A stretch of DNA of 17,053 bases from a bacterium (GTDB lineage Bacteria; JAJVIF01; JAGGVT01), in NCBI GenBank assembly GCA_021157815.1, contig JAGGVT010000155.1:1-17053 (forward strand). Reading direction: 5' to 3'. A program made the translations under genes and the position numbers. The notes under the pieces are model-generated. The model ran no database searches. It worked only from the letters and a program-made list of their open reading frames with translations, and was not told the DNA's origin. The first letter of the stretch is position 1; each line of letters begins with the position of its first letter. This document shows, one piece after another, positions 7,373 to 17,053 of the stretch.

Positions 7373-10300
7373 ATGTTATTTTCATCAAGGTTTTTTTTAC
7401 TGATAACGACAATCATTCTAATCCTGGTGATTTCAGGCTGTTCGGGGGGAGGGAAAACTCCCGCGATGCCTGATATGCCATCCGGTGATTTGATAGCTGA
7501 TTCAAATAACGGCGCGGCGATAGAGGGAATCGCAACAGGCCTTCTGGGTGTGTATCAGATTGCGATTGACCTGGGCACTATGGAATCCGAAATCACGCCA
7601 TCCCGTAAACTTGGTTCGATAGGAGATATCGCTCTTCCAGATGTTACCCAATATTTCATATCAACACCATGCGGGAATTGTTTTAATATCGATGCTCTCG
7701 GAATAACCGATGAGGGCTGGCTGGATATCGTTTTCAAAATGAAGCATCCATACCAGGAAACATCAAAGAGAAAGGATCTCGATGTTTTTGATGTCCGTGG
7801 AATCATGATATTCGAGGGTGACACCACATTCAACGCGTTGCCGCATATCGATCTTGACGGCGATGGTTTTGTTGATTCACCTCCACAGGGAAATTTCGAT
7901 AAACTGGCAAATGCCGATGGCTATACTTTCCATTACGATAATGTCGCGCTGGATTTGTTCGGGCTGGATATCGAGGGAAGTTTGAATCCATACAGGAATT
8001 TCTTTGTGGAGAATAATCCTGATCCTGATTATGACGGGGTTTTCATTCCGTGGCATAAAATGGCTCAGGGCTCACCCTTCGACAAGAAGCACTATCTGAT
8101 AAAACTCGATGATGGCGGCGAAACTCTGAATCTGATTTTTGTGATTGAGGCATCGTATGGCCAATCCGCCATTTTCAGTGTTCCATCCGGTGATCCCGGA
8201 AGCCGCTTGAATCCGATGTATTTCAATCCCGAGTTTAACCGTAAGGAGGCATACGATATCAGAGTCGATCCGATTGAAAATCTGACCGCCGCTGATTTAC
8301 ATTCAGAAACAACGGTTACAATCCATGTTGAGGACTGGCAGAACAGCCAGAGTCCGGATTGGAATATGGAAGATCCCGGATCGATTCGCTACAGGAGCAA
8401 TGTGGCATCCGTCTATTTAAGCGTTCCTGAAATCTCATCAACACTCTATACCACGACAACGGCCGATTCAGGCAACGGAACGCATTTGAATCCCTACGTT
8501 TTCTCTTTTGATGTCCTCAATGATCAGGGAGCGTTGGAAGGTGAATATACAGGTTTGGTCGCTGTAATGGATCAGTATCAAGAGGATGGCAGAACGGTTT
8601 ATGGAATCTCTCCAAGCGTCATGTTTACAACGTTCACCAACTATGAAGCGATTACAATAATTGCTGAGGAAGGATTTGTGAATAACGATCCGGTGGCGGT
8701 TGGAAGCGCTGACCCGAATCCGGCTGAATCAGATCAGACTATAAGCCTTATTGATGGGGATTCATACGATCCCGATTTTGGCGATTACATCGCGAAATAC
8801 GAATGGGATTTTGATATTTCCAACGGAGTTAATTTCACCGATTCCATTTCAACATCACCAAATCAGGCGCAAACATCATATACGAATACAACAGGCAGTA
8901 ACATTGAAATAACAGCACGCCTGCGAGTTACTGATAGCCATAACGCGACTGGCACAACCGATGTGATTATTACAGTTCAATCCACAGATAACACGCCTCC
9001 TGTCGCGGTTGGCAGCGCGGTTCCGAATCCGGCTAATCACAATCAGAGTGTAACGTTGATAGACAGCGATTCACACGATGATGATCCCGGTGATTATATC
9101 GCGCTCTACGAGTGGGATTACGATGACAGAAACGGAGTCGATTTCCTCGATTCAGTTTCCACCACTCCCAATCAGGGTCATGCGATATATCAAAATACAT
9201 CCGGTTCGGATATTCAAATCACAGCGACTCTAAGGGTTACTGACAGCCATTCGGCGCCTGATACGACAGAAGTAATAATCACTGTTCACACTGAACAAAC
9301 CAGCAACAATGACCCTATCGCGATTGCGAACGCGAACCCGAATCCTGTTACAAGCGGTCGCGATGTTCAGCTGCTCGATATTCTGAGCCATGATCCCGAT
9401 GACCCGCCGGACTATATCGCCACCTATAAATGGGATGTGGATATCTATAACGGTGTCGATTGGGATCATCCTGATTATGAGTCAGATCAGCCGAATCAGG
9501 CAATACATGTATATTCCAACACCGGGCTTGATCCGATTCAGTTCACTGCGCGGTTAAGAGTTTACGATTCACATGGCGCGTGGGGTGAGGATGATATAAC
9601 GATTACTGTCAATCCGAATCAGCTGCCTGTCGCTGTTTGCGACGCTGAACCTAATCCGACTCGCGGTGGTATCGATGTTCATTTCATTGACAGCGACAGT
9701 TATGATCCTGACCCGCTTGGTGAGATAATCAAATTCGAGTGGGATTTCGATTACGATTTAGTCACATTTGATATTGACCACACATCTCCCAACCCGGATG
9801 ATGCATACCACGCGTATGAGAACATGACAGCTGACACGATTATTTTCACCGCGGCATTAAGAGTTACTGACAATGCTCTTACAACGGATATCTGCACTGT
9901 CGATGTTACAGTTGAGCCGAATAATCCGCCTGTCGCGGTCGGTTATGCCGACCCGAATCCGGTTATCGCCGAGTTCGAAACAGTCCTGCACGCCGAGGGC
10001 AGTTATGATAATGATCCCGGCGATTCGATTTCGAAAATCCAGTGGGATTTCGAGTATGAAGGAACGTTTGAAATTGACGAGGAATCAACCGAAGTAACTG
10101 ATACGTTTCCTTACATTTATCACAACGCAACACCAGATCCGATTGAAATAACGGCAATGCTGAGAGTTTTCGATGAGTCGGAACTCTACGATGATATGGA
10201 GGTAATTGTTACAGTTAATCCGGAACTGCCGATACCTGTAATCACACACACTGAGAACAAAACGATGAATAACACCGGTTTGACTTTCACAATGAAGTCA

Positions 10301-10924
10301 TTTAACACGCAAGCCACAAATATCGCCTGGAACGGAATTGGATATTGGGATTTCACAGCGTTTGGAACATCCAGCACCTATGTCGAGGAGTTTATCGATC
10401 CTGACGGCGCTGAGTTTACCGGATACCGCAGTGATTATCCTGATGCCACAACGGTATTCAAAGCGCCGGGAAGTATCGGTACAGGTTACGGACCGCGTTA
10501 TTATGATAACACTGGCAATGGGTATCAGTGCGAACTTGGCCAGGAAAGCTCCGCTCTGGGACCGGGCAATGGATACCTGTACAACAATCCGGTTAAAATA
10601 CCATTCCCAATGGATATCAACTACACCGAAATGCTGTTTGCAAATGGCATGATAGCCGATATTCTGGCTTTCTCAATGACATACCATATTGATGCTGTTG
10701 GTTACGGCCTGGTTAAAACCGAACTTGGAACATTCAACTGCCTTCTGGTTCGCACATATACTTTGGTTTCAGTACAGGGAATGGATGATGAGGAATTTAT
10801 TACATACGAGTGGCTGTCGGATGAGGGCAGGAAAATTGGCACTGCGTCAAGCCAAACATTTGATCCGATAACTTATGTTCCGCTAGGTTCGATAAAATGC
10901 GCTCGCCTGACCAGTCATAATTAA
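7373..10924 (+). CDS. Giant lipoprotein with five PKD-like repeats
   Basis: This 1183-residue protein is predicted to be surface- or envelope-anchored. The signal peptide ends in VISGC (lipidated C23), followed by a Gly/Ser linker. Residues about 40-436 form an unfamiliar N-terminal region with a PCGNC pair, the segment DLDVFDVRGIMIF and a calcium-type DLDGDGFVDS loop. Five Ig-like repeats follow at about 437-539, 540-644, 645-748, 749-849 and 850-950. Each starts with NxxPVAVxxAxPNP, carries an aromatic-x-WD core such as YEWDFD, and ends in (L)RVxD and a VTV-type strand; this is the pattern of PKD domains. Residues 951-1183 form a beta-rich end domain containing GYGLVKTELGTFNCLLVRTY. There are no catalytic motifs, so binding, adhesion or a structural role is likely. 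The start has GAGAGG upstream. It is convergent with the sigma-54 activator gene. Confidence 0.9.
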   Translation: MLFSSRFFLLITTIILILVISGCSGGGKTPAMPDMPSGDLIADSNNGAAIEGIATGLLGVYQIAIDLGTMESEITPSRKLGSIGDIALPDVTQYFISTPCGNCFNIDALGITDEGWLDIVFKMKHPYQETSKRKDLDVFDVRGIMIFEGDTTFNALPHIDLDGDGFVDSPPQGNFDKLANADGYTFHYDNVALDLFGLDIEGSLNPYRNFFVENNPDPDYDGVFIPWHKMAQGSPFDKKHYLIKLDDGGETLNLIFVIEASYGQSAIFSVPSGDPGSRLNPMYFNPEFNRKEAYDIRVDPIENLTAADLHSETTVTIHVEDWQNSQSPDWNMEDPGSIRYRSNVASVYLSVPEISSTLYTTTTADSGNGTHLNPYVFSFDVLNDQGALEGEYTGLVAVMDQYQEDGRTVYGISPSVMFTTFTNYEAITIIAEEGFVNNDPVAVGSADPNPAESDQTISLIDGDSYDPDFGDYIAKYEWDFDISNGVNFTDSISTSPNQAQTSYTNTTGSNIEITARLRVTDSHNATGTTDVIITVQSTDNTPPVAVGSAVPNPANHNQSVTLIDSDSHDDDPGDYIALYEWDYDDRNGVDFLDSVSTTPNQGHAIYQNTSGSDIQITATLRVTDSHSAPDTTEVIITVHTEQTSNNDPIAIANANPNPVTSGRDVQLLDILSHDPDDPPDYIATYKWDVDIYNGVDWDHPDYESDQPNQAIHVYSNTGLDPIQFTARLRVYDSHGAWGEDDITITVNPNQLPVAVCDAEPNPTRGGIDVHFIDSDSYDPDPLGEIIKFEWDFDYDLVTFDIDHTSPNPDDAYHAYENMTADTIIFTAALRVTDNALTTDICTVDVTVEPNNPPVAVGYADPNPVIAEFETVLHAEGSYDNDPGDSISKIQWDFEYEGTFEIDEESTEVTDTFPYIYHNATPDPIEITAMLRVFDESELYDDMEVIVTVNPELPIPVITHTENKTMNNTGLTFTMKSFNTQATNIAWNGIGYWDFTAFGTSSTYVEEFIDPDGAEFTGYRSDYPDATTVFKAPGSIGTGYGPRYYDNTGNGYQCELGQESSALGPGNGYLYNNPVKIPFPMDINYTEMLFANGMIADILAFSMTYHIDAVGYGLVKTELGTFNCLLVRTYTLVSVQGMDDEEFITYEWLSDEGRKIGTASSQTFDPITYVPLGSIKCARLTSHN
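8681..10222 (+). repeat. Five PKD-like domain repeats within the lipoprotein gene
   Basis: Five consecutive units of 303-315 bp encode the PKD-like domains. They are clearly homologous at protein level (PVAVGSADPNP, PVAVGSAVPNP, PIAIANANPNP, PVAVCDAEPNP, PVAVGYADPNP at their starts) but diverged at DNA level apart from short shared stretches such as CCGAATCC. This points to old duplication rather than recent expansion. The first two units are closest, sharing a long S(T/V)S(T)xPNQ segment. Confidence 0.9.
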
Positions 10925-10969: not shown

Positions 10970-12592
10970 TTACTTCAAACCATGTTTCTTCATCCATTTG
11001 TGAAGGGTGGGAGCGGATATGCCAAGACGTCTCGCGGCTGCCGCGCAATTTCCATTTTCCAGTTCAAGCGCGCGTTTTCTCATCGTGATGATTACACTGT
11101 CCTCAGTAACGCCCTCCATTACGGCATAGAAATCTTTCTTGATTTCAACAGGTTGAATCATGTTATCAAGCGCTTTTATGTCTATCAATTTTCCATCCGA
11201 GTGAATCACAAGGCGCTCAATGAGATTTTTAAACTCACGAACATTTCCCGACCACGGCATCATCTGCAGTTTCTTTAAAACGTCATCATCAATCTCAATT
11301 ATCGGCTTGTTGATATTGTTACATTCCCTTCTAATGAAAAAACTCGCCAGTTCAGGTATATCATCCAGCCTCATTCGCAACGGCGGTATTTCAATTGTCA
11401 AAACATTCAGGCGGTAATAGAGATCCTCTCTGAACTGGTTTTTACTTACAAGTTCCTGCAGATTCCTGTGTGTCGCCAAAACAATTCTCGCGTTCGATTC
11501 TTTAACCACCTCATCGCCCAGTCTTCTGAAATTTTTATCATCGAGGAACTGAAGAAGTTTCACCTGCGTTCCGGGAGTCAACTCGCCGATTTCATCCAAA
11601 AATAAAGTTCCATTCTGCGCCTGAGCGATATATCCCTGATGATCCTTTACAGCGTCGGTGAAGGCTCCCTTGACATATCCAAAAAATTCCGCTTCAAACA
11701 GGGTTTCAGGAATACCGCCGCAATTCATCACAATGAATGGGCCAAGCACTTTGGAACGGCGATGTATTTCCTCCGCGACCACCCTTTTGCCTGTACCCGT
11801 TTCACCGGTTATCAGAACCTGCCTTGGAAGAGACGCGTAACGGTCGATTAATTCATCGATATGTTTCATGCCGGCGCTTTTCCCAACCATGACTCTGTAT
11901 ACATTCTTGCGATCTTTCTGGAGAGATTCCAGCTTACGCTCTGACAGCAGGACATTCTCATACAGCAGCGATGCCAGTGTCGCGAAGTCACACAGAAAAG
12001 GAAGGTCGGTTTCATCCAGGTCCTTCCCAAGTTCCCTGCTGTCGATATATACAACTCCGATAATCTCTTTTGATGATTGTATTGGAGCGGCTATAACTGA
12101 AACAATTCCCCCTCTCATTATCGAGCCGGAACCGTAAAAATCGCTGGTGTTCGTGATGTTCTTTTCGTAAACGCCTTCACCAGTCGTAAGGACTTTCTCA
12201 ACGACAGTCTTGCTGTACGGAAACTCCTCTGATGAATTCTCCGGATACCTGATAGCGGGAAAAGTTGATTTGTGGAATTCATCCATTAAAACAATAGCGC
12301 CTGAATTCGCGCCTGTTATGCATACGGCTCCTGACAGCGCGGCAGGGAGAATTTCATCCGCATTCTTCCCGGAAACCATCAGCCTGACAGCATCCATCAG
12401 AATCTTGATTTTCTTTTCAGGAATGGACGATACGCTGTCCCCCTGATTAGCTCCGGATACAAGCCTGTCGAGATCATTTATAAGACTCGTAAGCTGTTTG
12501 CCTTGAAGTATGGACACATCATCTGCAATTTCCCTGACAACGTTAATACGTCCACTGATGCGTTCAATTAAATCGCGTAAATCGTCAGTCAT
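10970..12592 (-). CDS. Sigma-54-dependent activator, GAF-AAA+-Fis
   Basis: The 540-residue protein is a bacterial enhancer-binding protein, which uses ATP to open promoters bound by sigma-54 RNA polymerase. Residues 1-65 are helical. A GAF sensor domain spans about 66-215, with the typical GVVYIDSRELG strand-helix. The AAA+ domain spans about 233-465: Walker A GETGTGKR (263-270), GAFTDA (309-314), Walker B TLFLDEIGE (329-337), FREDLYYRL (387-395) and WSGNVREF (447-454). A Fis-type helix-turn-helix closes the protein (about 503-540, CAAAARRLGISAPTLHKWMKKHG). The sigma-54 contact loop reads GAFTDA instead of GAFTGA. There is no receiver domain, so control is by ligand at GAF, by a partner, or by the adjacent kinase, which lies upstream on the same strand after a 256-bp gap. 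The ATG has only a weak ribosome site. Confidence 0.95.
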   Translation of the reverse strand: MTDDLRDLIERISGRINVVREIADDVSILQGKQLTSLINDLDRLVSGANQGDSVSSIPEKKIKILMDAVRLMVSGKNADEILPAALSGAVCITGANSGAIVLMDEFHKSTFPAIRYPENSSEEFPYSKTVVEKVLTTGEGVYEKNITNTSDFYGSGSIMRGGIVSVIAAPIQSSKEIIGVVYIDSRELGKDLDETDLPFLCDFATLASLLYENVLLSERKLESLQKDRKNVYRVMVGKSAGMKHIDELIDRYASLPRQVLITGETGTGKRVVAEEIHRRSKVLGPFIVMNCGGIPETLFEAEFFGYVKGAFTDAVKDHQGYIAQAQNGTLFLDEIGELTPGTQVKLLQFLDDKNFRRLGDEVVKESNARIVLATHRNLQELVSKNQFREDLYYRLNVLTIEIPPLRMRLDDIPELASFFIRRECNNINKPIIEIDDDVLKKLQMMPWSGNVREFKNLIERLVIHSDGKLIDIKALDNMIQPVEIKKDFYAVMEGVTEDSVIITMRKRALELENGNCAAAARRLGISAPTLHKWMKKHGLK

Positions 12593-12738
12593 ATCAACTC
12601 AACCCCGGAATAAAATTTTCTAATTTTTCAAGATGATTCTAATGATAAATGTTGAATATTTTACATTGCCACTAGATTATGATAGCAGTAAAGCATAAAT
12701 ATTTCAATTAGAAATCAAGAGGTTTTTGGAGTAATAAA

Positions 12739-12813
12739 ATGCGAAAAAGGAGGTTAAATATGTCGCATCACTCGAAATCCTGGATAATTATGTACAAGTT
12801 TGCATCGCTATAG
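12739..12813 (+). CDS. Possible 24- or 17-codon small ORF with strong ribosome sites
   Basis: Between the kinase and activator genes, on the opposite strand, ATG 12739 opens a frame reading MRKRRLNMSHHSKSWIIMYKFASL. GGAG (12728-12731) lies 7 nt upstream of it. A second in-frame ATG at 12760 is preceded by a full AAGGAGGT (12747-12754) with a 5-nt spacer, giving a 17-residue version. The product would be basic with a hydrophobic-aromatic C-terminal half. No convincing promoter is visible: TTGCCA at 12666-12671 has no good -10 partner. It may be a genuine small peptide or a chance A/G-rich stretch. Confidence 0.25.
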   Translation: MRKRRLNMSHHSKSWIIMYKFASL

Positions 12814-12848
12814 TTGAGCAAGTCTGTGTGGGGATATCTGGATAAAGT

Positions 12849-15800
12849 CTACTGCTTTTTCCACTTCTCAGGATCAAATATCTTTCGATCACCTCTGAAC
12901 TGGAACACTCCGGCATTTATTGGTGATATTGGGTAGAAATGGATGTTATTGTTTATATCAGCCAGCATAATACTGTAAGTGCCATCATTATAGAAATCTG
13001 CAATTAGTGGATTAAATTTTTCAATTTCTGGAATTCTATGCGACCAAAGGAGTTTAAATTTATTGGCTTCCTGATTGATTGCAAGAATCTGTGCAATTTT
13101 AATCCTGGTTTCGTTTGAAGAATCATTTCGCGTGTCGGTTTCGAAAGTATAAGCCATAACGGGAACATCATTAACATTTGCACGACATTTCGCAGCAGTC
13201 ACATCTCCAATGAAGGAGAATTCATCCAGAATTTCACCAGATGATGCGGCGATCAATTTAAAGACATTCAGTGTATCCGATGATGCGTTGCTGTTTTCTT
13301 CCACGAGCGAATTGGTAAGCGTGTCCAGGATTACAATTCGTTTGTTATCATTGTTGGATAGATCGTCAAATGTTTGAATCATGCTACAGGTTACCGACGC
13401 CTGATTGGGCCATGGACACGGGCAAACTCCAGCATTTTCAAGATCAAAGAATCCCAAATGATAACTGTCATCAGAATAAAGGAAATAGCTCTTTTGATCA
13501 ATCTGCATAACATGGTCGTTTCCACATCTTAGGCCATAATCAAACGAACTGCATGTAAAGCCACTTATATCTTTTTCATTGTATTTGGGTTTATCATTTA
13601 CAAAAAGGTCATCAATACGAATTTGTATCATTTTGTTTAAATGAGGGCTAATTCTATTTTCATTCCCCAAAAATGCGACATATTGTTCATTTTCACCAGT
13701 CCTGTATGGAATCACGCATGTTGGCAGATAATAATCAAGTTTGATATCATCAATAATGCTGACCATACGATTCTCATTCTCATCCCAGCGCAGGAACTTG
13801 ACCATTGACACTGGTTTATCAAAATTTGCGCCTGATCTCATATCTTCCGGAAGATAACATGAGAAAATAAAGATATTCCCCCTTAAGTCAGTTTCAAGCA
13901 AATATCCGTAGCTGTACCAATAGTCAGAGCGTTCAATTTCCCAGATATTGGCATTTTTCTCAGGTGAATAAATAACAGCGCCACTACGAGCGCCAGTGAT
14001 AAATACATCCTCAACGCCATCATTGTCAAAATCCTCCACCAAAAGTTGATTGGCTGCATTGTCGACACCTATTTTCGGAATCACTTTCTTCACAGGGACA
14101 GAATCACTGAAACCGATTTCCAGAATGGCGCCATCCGTTCTTCGTGTCGGATAATAAATTTTCTTATCCCCTTGTGCAGTCATCGTTATCACAGGCTGAT
14201 TTAATATATCGTTTTCAAGGCACAATACATAGTCCACAGGATCCTCCTCAGCGTTCACGCAAACGAACTGCCCCTGAATTGTACCCGTGACTAATTCCAT
14301 TCCACCATCCAAATCAATGTCCGCGGCAAGTAATCCGTGCCATATTTCATTTGCATTCTCAATTTTATAATTCCCCGATTTTACTGTTGGGTAAAAGTGC
14401 CAAAACACTCCCGCGTTTATATTTGCCTTGGCAAAAAGAACTGAATCATGCACTTTCACACCTAAAGGTTCTGTCCAGATTTCCTGAGCATTAAGACTCA
14501 AACAATCATTGCCAATTTTAATAATACTCTTGCCGTCGTAATCATACAGCCCTATTTCACCGCTGTGATTGGCAATTGCAAAACGAACATCGTTTTCATT
14601 TGGGCTTATCGGATCAATAAAAAACACTGGTGAAGAGCTGCAGCAATTGAATGTACCATCGGTTTTCTTCATTTCCCATTGAACGGATTTCATCAGCTTG
14701 GATTCAGCGCTGTATTCCATGATATGGATTACGCCTGTTAGAGTTGCCACAACAATTTCCGGTTTTCTGTCAGCATTTAAGTCCGCAATACCAGGCGATC
14801 CGACAATCTTCGATGTTGGATAATGCGCCAGTTCACTTCCATCCTCCCCGGAGACAATTACCGTGCCTGCTGGCAGGTATTCAGGATTATAAGCCGTATC
14901 CTTTGGTTCAGCAGTGCAAATCACAATATCCAGAAAACCATCATTGTTGAAATCGTAAAATGCAGGAGTGGAATTTTCAAGAATGGCATTGAATTCAACA
15001 TGGTTTTGCCACTTTAAAGAAGATTCCTTTTCCCAGACAGGACGCCCATCTGTTGTATCAAGCAGGTATAATTTGCCGTTTGAAGTGGGTACGACAATCA
15101 CATGCTCGCCATCTTCCTTAATCTGAATGACAGAAACTGACGAGCTTAACTGCACATCATCCAGTTGAAGTTGATTATCCAAGTCAGGCCATATAAGTGA
15201 ATTGTCATCCCCGGAAATGCAAACAACGGTTGAAAACAGGACATCGGATTTATATCCGCTGATGGCAAAAATGATATCCTCGCAACCGTCATCATTACAG
15301 TCAAAATGCGCCGGACCGGCCTCCTCAACCATTCCTTCAATTCCACTGGGCCAGATTTCCTCGAAAACTCCGCTTATGCCGTTAATTCGATACATCTGAT
15401 GGGACGACGCAACAACAACCTCATAACGACCATCACCCCGAGAGTCAAATATCATTGGATGCCCCAGGAATGGCTTGCTCTTTCCCTCAGGCTTGCCAAT
15501 ATCAAACATCCAGTTTACAAGCGGTGTTTCATACAGTTTAAGATCAATGTTACAGGTTATTTTATCGTTTGAATTAACATGGATTTCCTTATAATGATTG
15601 CAATAACCATCCCGTTCGAATCGCAATGTGTGATTTCCAGGAGTGATTCGGTGCGACTCCCCATCATTTAAATTTTGCTCTTCACTGTCCAGAAATACTT
15701 GCGCCTGATTGGGCTTGATATTAAAGTCAATTTCAGCGGGACGAGGTATCAATTGATAAATCAAAAATACCAGGGCAAAAACAAGAATCAGGTATGCGGA

Positions 15801-16667
15801 TATTTTAATGAGTTTTTGGTGCTTTTTAATTCGAATTCGGTTTCTTATCGCTGATAGTTTTGTAGTTGACGCAAAGATACTGGAACCTGAATGGGTTTGC
15901 TCATCGATGATATCGAGAATCTCACGCGCAGATGGCCTGTTGCCGGACGAAGCATCGCACATGATTTCCTTCAAAGAGAGAATCCAACGCGGGACATCCG
16001 ATGCGACTGTCTCACCCAGCATTTCCTCCAGTGTTCTGCCAAGCGAGTAGATATCGGACGCTTTACTGGCTTTGCCCCCTACCCTTTTCAATTCAGGCGC
16101 GGAATATTTCAACGTGCCACGGAAAGCATCGGGAGCGGTTATTGTGCGTTCGAATTCAAATCGAGCCAGACCAAAATCGAATATTTTCATCTTTGCGGGA
16201 GTTTCAGAATCACCAGCATCAAGCAGGAAAATGTTCGACGGTTTTAAATCCCTGTGAAGAACCGGCAGTTCCCTTTCATGCAGCATTGCGACAATTTCAG
16301 CAATTGCCCGGATAATCCGAACTGTTTTTCTCCAGTCAGGAGAATTCCGCTTGAGGTAATCATCCAGCGTTTCATCCTCGATAAGTTCAATCGCGTGATA
16401 ATAAAGATCTCTCCCGGCGACATTCGCGACATTGGATTCATAGACTTTAATAATGCCCGGGTTATCTATCTCTGACAGTATTTTCCCCTCTCGAAGAAAC
16501 AGCCTTGTTATTTCAGGATCCTGCCTCGCATGGAACTCATGAATTACTTTCAGTGCAATCTTTTTATTTTTAAAGGTATCAAGAACGCGATATATGCACG
16601 CCTCGCCGCCTCGAGCGATTTCCTCAATGATTTCATACTTGTTAATCTTCTCGCCTTTTGAGAGCAA
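12849..16667 (-). CDS. Membrane Ser/Thr kinase with extracytoplasmic beta-propeller
   Basis: The 1272-residue protein is a Hanks-type receptor kinase. The cytoplasmic kinase domain (about 11-256) has a glycine loop ARGGEACIY (19-26 region), K40 in IALKV, E60 in the C helix, HRDLKPSN (138-145), DFG (164-166) and APE (190-192), so all catalytic residues are present. A basic juxtamembrane segment (270-284) and one helix (285-307) follow. Residues 311-378 resemble a PEGA-type domain. The remainder (about 379-1272) contains at least seven FG-GAP/VCBS-like DxDxDG loops, near 408, 456, 572, 629, 783, 879 and 1224, predicting a calcium-binding beta-propeller outside the inner membrane. The start is TTG at 16667; an in-frame stop lies 8 codons upstream and no ATG fits before the kinase fold. 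It lies 56 bp downstream of tRNA-Arg and upstream of the sigma-54 activator. Confidence 0.93.
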   Translation of the reverse strand: MLSKGEKINKYEIIEEIARGGEACIYRVLDTFKNKKIALKVIHEFHARQDPEITRLFLREGKILSEIDNPGIIKVYESNVANVAGRDLYYHAIELIEDETLDDYLKRNSPDWRKTVRIIRAIAEIVAMLHERELPVLHRDLKPSNIFLLDAGDSETPAKMKIFDFGLARFEFERTITAPDAFRGTLKYSAPELKRVGGKASKASDIYSLGRTLEEMLGETVASDVPRWILSLKEIMCDASSGNRPSAREILDIIDEQTHSGSSIFASTTKLSAIRNRIRIKKHQKLIKISAYLILVFALVFLIYQLIPRPAEIDFNIKPNQAQVFLDSEEQNLNDGESHRITPGNHTLRFERDGYCNHYKEIHVNSNDKITCNIDLKLYETPLVNWMFDIGKPEGKSKPFLGHPMIFDSRGDGRYEVVVASSHQMYRINGISGVFEEIWPSGIEGMVEEAGPAHFDCNDDGCEDIIFAISGYKSDVLFSTVVCISGDDNSLIWPDLDNQLQLDDVQLSSSVSVIQIKEDGEHVIVVPTSNGKLYLLDTTDGRPVWEKESSLKWQNHVEFNAILENSTPAFYDFNNDGFLDIVICTAEPKDTAYNPEYLPAGTVIVSGEDGSELAHYPTSKIVGSPGIADLNADRKPEIVVATLTGVIHIMEYSAESKLMKSVQWEMKKTDGTFNCCSSSPVFFIDPISPNENDVRFAIANHSGEIGLYDYDGKSIIKIGNDCLSLNAQEIWTEPLGVKVHDSVLFAKANINAGVFWHFYPTVKSGNYKIENANEIWHGLLAADIDLDGGMELVTGTIQGQFVCVNAEEDPVDYVLCLENDILNQPVITMTAQGDKKIYYPTRRTDGAILEIGFSDSVPVKKVIPKIGVDNAANQLLVEDFDNDGVEDVFITGARSGAVIYSPEKNANIWEIERSDYWYSYGYLLETDLRGNIFIFSCYLPEDMRSGANFDKPVSMVKFLRWDENENRMVSIIDDIKLDYYLPTCVIPYRTGENEQYVAFLGNENRISPHLNKMIQIRIDDLFVNDKPKYNEKDISGFTCSSFDYGLRCGNDHVMQIDQKSYFLYSDDSYHLGFFDLENAGVCPCPWPNQASVTCSMIQTFDDLSNNDNKRIVILDTLTNSLVEENSNASSDTLNVFKLIAASSGEILDEFSFIGDVTAAKCRANVNDVPVMAYTFETDTRNDSSNETRIKIAQILAINQEANKFKLLWSHRIPEIEKFNPLIADFYNDGTYSIMLADINNNIHFYPISPINAGVFQFRGDRKIFDPEKWKKQ

Positions 16668-16838: not shown

Positions 16839-17053
16839 GACACTGGTGTCCGGTTAAGTTATTGACCAATTGCCGGATTGATGATTAACAGAAGATATAC
16901 CGGCTTATTGGGATTTTCAGACATGAACCGAAAGTGAACACCGAATCGTTCTATCCGTAAAAAGGGGACAGTCCACATAGGCTTCAAATCTGACGTTATC
17001 AATATACCATACTGCAAACCCTCTTTTATACTGTATTTATTCACATGGTTGGG
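16839..17053. other. Right edge: non-coding, inverted repeats, possible mobile-element end
   Basis: No gene is recognised. GACAC-TG-GTGTC (16839-16850) is a short dyad followed by CGGTTAAG. A longer imperfect hairpin pairs CCAATTGCCGG (16866-16876) with CCGGCTTATTGG (16900-16911) across 23 nt. Further right are GGTTCATG-type and GTGAACACCG motifs (about 16920-16945) and GGGGACAGTCC near 16967, which recall sequences near some insertion-sequence ends. A minus-strand open frame here (17044 to 16859, GTG start) has no family character and is not called as a gene. Confidence 0.35.

Follow-up and report, generated by a model that had tools for sequence, protein, structure and literature searches.

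Introduction

The system in which a Hanks-type kinase acts on a sigma factor, PknS–EcfK, has a homologous case in PknT–EcfP. In Xanthomonas citri, the transmembrane Hanks kinase PknS phosphorylates its cognate sigma factor EcfK (PMC13147305). This pair is a precedent for a Hanks kinase acting directly on the transcription initiation machinery; its target is an ECF sigma factor, whereas the locus described here encodes an AAA+ sigma-54 activator. Closer to the sigma-54 system, Jelsbak et al. reportedly proposed in 2005 that myxobacterial sigma-54 activators carrying FHA domains are targets of Ser/Thr kinases. Relatives of this form are present in our sample (L148, L051), whereas the activator considered here lacks an FHA domain and instead carries a GAF domain whose lid reads S-x-T. 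Its GAF–AAA+–HTH architecture is that of NorR and NifA, from which it differs in the S-x-T motif, a kinase neighbour, and a GAFTDA loop in place of GAFTGA. A survey of sigma-54 systems classes GAF activators as ligand-type and names histidine kinases among the neighbours (PMC3162934).

On the kinase side, PknD of Mycobacterium tuberculosis shares an N-terminal cytoplasmic Hanks kinase, one transmembrane segment, and an external beta-propeller (PMC6213207); the kinase described below differs in its FG-GAP type of propeller, its much larger ectodomain, and the sigma-54 activator encoded next to it. A literature search, with most subscription papers outside its scope, found no described pair of a Ser/Thr kinase and a GAF activator. 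Here we analyze such a pair in a window of 17,053 nucleotides (contig C28 of genome G000, which is 3.2 Mb and 91% complete). Judging from sequence, we hold with somewhat more confidence than doubt that the two proteins would constitute a receptor-kinase/sigma-54-activator pair that gates sigma-54 transcription.

Results

Architecture of the kinase and activator genes

The initial annotation placed a Ser/Thr propeller kinase directly upstream of a GAF-type sigma-54 activator on the same strand, and its coordinates and domains were borne out (Table 1); there is no intervening gene. The kinase domain was recovered with Pfam (Pkinase, E=1.8e-29, residues 11–219), the HRDLKPSN, DFG, and APE motifs are all intact with the full standard set of catalytic residues, and K40, E60, D140, and D164 are invariant in an alignment of 27 partner kinases. 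By these motifs the protein is catalytically complete, and kinase activity is predicted. A single transmembrane segment and an outer sensor domain, in the orientation we deduce, give it the makeup of a Hanks-type receptor. The predicted exterior spans ~960 residues, and its assignment as a propeller is taken solely from the Pfam repeats (FG-GAP_3, 3.2e-18; FG-GAP, 1.2e-7), the AlphaFold model of the ectodomain (pLDDT 34) having been left unused.

In the same genome, a paralog on contig C57 (L041:1737-4085) is 51% identical to the window kinase over the first 318 residues and has a different type of propeller (SBBP) on its exterior, such that the same kinase appears with a swapped sensor. On another contig, a single open frame of 1264 aa (G000:C133:7617-9998) encodes three tandem Ser/Thr kinase domains.

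Table 1 Positions of the kinase and activator features within the window
Feature	Position	Strand	Basis
Ser/Thr receptor kinase of Hanks type, 1272 aa from a TTG start	12849..16667	(-)	ORF + Pfam
Cytoplasmic kinase domain, residues 9-219, with K40, E60, HRD D140, DFG D164, APE	16011..16643	(-)	
Single transmembrane segment of kinase, residues 289-307	15747..15803	(-)	Hydropathy
Predicted exterior of kinase: stretch resembling PEGA by eye, followed by propeller repeats of FG-GAP/VCBS type	12852..15746	(-)	Pfam FG-GAP_3, FG-GAP
Intergenic gap from kinase to activator, 256 bp	12593..12848	(-)	
GAF-AAA+-HTH sigma-54 activator, 540 aa	10970..12592	(-)	ORF + Pfam
GAF domain of activator, residues 77-209	11966..12364	(-)	Pfam
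S127-K128-T129, S-x-[ST] motif at GAF lid helix N-cap	12206..12214	(-)	AlphaFold model + alignment
AAA+ sigma-54 interaction domain, residues 235-401	11390..11890	(-)	Pfam + motifs
GAFTDA loop of activator (GAFTGA with D at position 5)	11651..11668	(-)	
HTH_8 DNA-binding domain of activator, residues 507-536	10985..11074	(-)	Pfam

The downstream protein matches GAF_3 (3e-8), Sigma54_activat (3.7e-60), AAA_lid_14, and HTH_8 (5.6e-6) in Pfam; Walker A (GETGTGK), Walker B (FLDEIGE), and the R-finger (FREDLYYR) are all intact, and the AlphaFold model of the whole protein has a mean pLDDT of 77. With these AAA+ motifs, a C-terminal HTH, and one rpoN in the genome, it qualifies as a sigma-54 activator (bEBP). 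Pfam gave no Response_reg match, so the protein lacks the receiver domain of NtrC-type activators and has a GAF domain in its place; the same search returned no FHA domain, which sets it apart from FHA-type activators. The GAFTDA loop is present in 12 of the 97 receiver-type activators in the sample and can thus be regarded as an accepted variant of GAFTGA, and for this reason we rejected the idea that it marks a dead activator. In NorR, the equivalent change (G266D) releases the protein from repression by its GAF domain (PMC2941729), so a NorR-like repression of the loop may not operate here. In the activator tree, the protein has a very long branch (1.9) and no supported placement.

The junction between the two genes does not obviously resemble that of an operon. 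The gap contains a sigma-70-like site (TTGAAA-17-TATCAT with a TG extension, 12707–12679), and the 256-bp length together with this possible promoter of the activator's own argues against tight co-transcription. The site itself is weak, given that sigma-70-like sites in the scanned region were no commoner than after shuffling (three observed against 4.7 expected); co-transcription is therefore possible, not indicated. Beyond the 5′ end of the kinase gene, the window closes with a short palindromic repeat (16960–17053) ending in AAAAGGGGACWGTCC, and the contig ends within this copy; a further copy is found, for example, at G000:C57:1579-1685. Its termini number 99 in the genome against none for the reversed control and often occur in inverted pairs ~93–108 bp apart, as in a MITE- or REP-like element.

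The pair in its own genome and in relatives

The genome contains eight Pkinase matches in about six Ser/Thr kinase proteins, together with seven sigma-54 activators, of which the window protein alone has a GAF domain and alone adjoins a kinase; the other six were classed by script as receiver type, although one of them (L044) looks PAS-like from its sequence. Given these numbers, the adjacency of kinase and activator in this genome exceeds chance. Three further genomes of the phylum were compared and none has an orthologous pair, so conservation of the exact pair cannot be shown, and an ortholog search with the activator alone across the named genomes found nothing. Two of the three phylum genomes have GAF activators (L058, L059), neither of which adjoins a kinase; both are only about one third identical to the window protein and may not be its orthologs. 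The first of these (L058:1-11000, from G001, same class) lies among several large exported propeller-repeat proteins (DUF5122, SBBP-like) with no kinase.

One may postulate a scenario in which the activator is a one-component sensor whose GAF domain binds a small molecule, while the kinase has other substrates and the adjacency is incidental. Separate genes with a gap and a possible promoter between them would fit this scenario, as would the lack of the pair in the three phylum genomes and the location of the L058 and L059 activators away from kinases. We nevertheless regard it as unlikely, because kinases are enriched around GAF activators across the class and are in places fused to them, and because the window GAF domain has the S-x-T lid typical of kinase-linked activators, unlike the G-x-G of NifA-like proteins.

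Kinase linkage of GAF activators recurs across phyla

Using an HMM constructed for this analysis, we looked for Ser/Thr kinases in the neighborhoods of activators, and counted an activator as linked if a kinase was fused to it or lay within 1.5 kb. Two sets of activators were blind to kinases: one, from 59 genomes, ordered solely by how similar its members are to the window activator, and one near-random set of 80 named loci, mostly receiver-type, among the listed matches to a profile made from linked activators. Ranking by that profile gave a third set, which is therefore biased toward linked activators. In the kinase-blind sets, among the matches listed, 11 of 28 GAF activators were linked compared to 0/66 receiver-type activators (Fisher p=3.1e-7, with near relatives counted separately in uncollapsed sets), and the remaining 17 of these 28 had no kinase neighbor. 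Across all three sets, again among the matches listed and with near relatives uncollapsed, the corresponding counts were 39/69 and 0/96. Linkage of Ser/Thr kinases to GAF activators recurs in multiple phyla.

Three layouts were observed, with the kinase upstream, downstream, or fused, and these are distributed over several clades with 10 changes on the tree. Where the genes are separate, 20 of 31 pairs overlap or are at most 100 bp apart (the window pair is counted, and the gap limit is 1.8 kb); the genes overlap, for instance, at L053 and L049. Eleven single-chain fusions each contain kinase, GAF, and AAA domains, two of which (L054, L055) read STK–TPR–GAF–sigma54–HTH by Pfam. Linked examples include a Myxococcaceae MAG (L062) and Acidobacteria bacterium Mor1 (L103), in which the activator is followed 6 bp on by a kinase with a PD40 propeller; the partner kinase of L053 likewise has a PD40 propeller, such that a propeller kinase is found beside a GAF activator in at least these two loci. 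A simple hydropathy scan identified a transmembrane segment in the L053 kinase and none in that of L103. PEGA domains are present in 10 of 27 partner kinases, and at L169 and L171 the kinase and activator are separated, as read from the sequences, by a lipoprotein and an exported TPR-like protein, which fits an envelope theme.

As GAF-type activators are repeatedly found beside or fused to kinases and receiver-type activators never are in the sample, the window kinase and activator probably form one signaling route, and the pairing is a module that recurs rather than a rare arrangement. The initial annotation had proposed a single signaling unit of an uncommon kind. The first part finds support at the level of the class, while none of the three phylum genomes compared has an ortholog of the exact pair; the second does not agree with the recurrent occurrence of the arrangement in genomes of distant phyla. 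It had also held that the proposal would fall if the genes were not neighbors in relatives, and this holds in part, since the three phylum genomes lack the pair even though the pairing recurs in distant phyla.

A second alternative is that the kinase acts indirectly, through an FHA adaptor or another phosphorylated regulator, and that the activator is not its substrate. Candidate adaptors exist in the genome, in which a protein with two FHA domains is encoded on contig C39 and a further, FHA-bearing kinase on C51, and some linked activators elsewhere carry FHA domains themselves. The L148 activator, divergent from its kinase and 67 bp away, has this phosphothreonine reader above the Pfam cut-off, which also speaks for the paired route; the relative L051 has a weak FHA-like region. 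The window itself contains no FHA protein, however, and the fusions unite kinase and activator in a single chain that would require no adaptor; we consider indirect action quite improbable. A search of the genome with the PP2C_2 family returned no phosphatase of that family, which counts against the proposed pair.

A motif in the GAF lid marks the linked class

The N-cap position of the lid helix in the GAF domain was taken from the AlphaFold model of the activator; there, 44 of 45 kinase-linked activators have Ser, and 38 of these have S-x-[ST]. Among unlinked activators, 7 of 24 have the G-x-G of NifA-like proteins, and in NifA-like sequences on the tree, such as L069 and L143, this G-x-G lid goes with a lack of kinase neighbors. 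The window activator, with S127-K-T129 and an adjacent kinase, has both features of the linked group. Change of the lid Ser maps to just two events on the tree, so the motif is a clade marker; we retained it as such and rejected it as independent proof of kinase coupling. We suggest that S127 and T129 are a candidate phosphosite or phosphate-binding site.

Sigma-54 promoters and lipoprotein genes

The window contains no credible −24/−12 site; matches with up to two mismatches number seven against 9.3 expected, and none lies upstream of the kinase, the activator, or the lipoprotein gene at 7373-10924(+). The latter encodes 1183 aa with repeated PKD-type domains and had been put forward as a possible target of the pair. 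We found no support for this, as the gene is convergent with the activator (stops 45 bp apart) and has no upstream site at that threshold.

Neighboring genes are often regulated by sigma-54 activators, and it could accordingly be argued that the kinase gene or envelope genes are expressed under the activator's control, with the kinase as output rather than input. The lack of a −24/−12 match (up to two mismatches) upstream of either gene and the position of the kinase in fusions, where it occupies the place of an input domain, both speak against this reading, which we view as very improbable.

In a genome-wide search of the kind that the initial annotation had suggested, exact matches to TGGYAYRNNNNTTGCW number nine, compared to six for the reversed control pattern; five of the nine lie at most 120 bp upstream of a gene on the same strand, while all six control sites lie inside ORFs. 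Three of the five genes behind such sites encode lipoproteins, against 16/118 ORFs by a rough lipobox rule. One of the three, a lipoprotein gene on contig C57 (L041:68-1438), has a near-consensus −24/−12 site, TGGCACAGGATTTGCT, 43 bp upstream, counted from its likely start, and it lies directly downstream of the 51%-identical paralog of the window kinase. Position thus connects this family of kinases with sigma-54 and a surface protein at C57, and the C57 lipoprotein is a better target candidate than the window lipoprotein, but nothing ties C57 to the window activator.

Discussion

The explanation that we favor is that the FG-GAP propeller would bind or detect some cue at the cell envelope, and that this would make the Hanks domain in the cytoplasm more or less active. 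The kinase would in turn control the activator, most likely by Ser/Thr phosphorylation of the GAF domain or N-terminal regulatory part, at a site and with a sign that we can only infer. The ability of the AAA+ ring to remodel sigma-54 RNA polymerase would depend on this control, and the promoters concerned would lie elsewhere in the genome, plausibly in front of lipoprotein genes.

A broader proposal is that GAF activators with an S-x-[ST] lid, with separate or fused kinases and spanning phyla, are controlled by Hanks receptor kinases that phosphorylate the lid, which would constitute a third main input to sigma-54 transcription, with the window pair as its propeller-receptor version. This interpretation is tentative, and in its full extent we find it rather doubtful.

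Sigma-54 activators are usually assigned to histidine kinases or ligands. If the route proposed here is correct, a sizeable set of “orphan” activators would gain a predictable input, and envelope-sensing Hanks kinases would gain a direct path to promoters.
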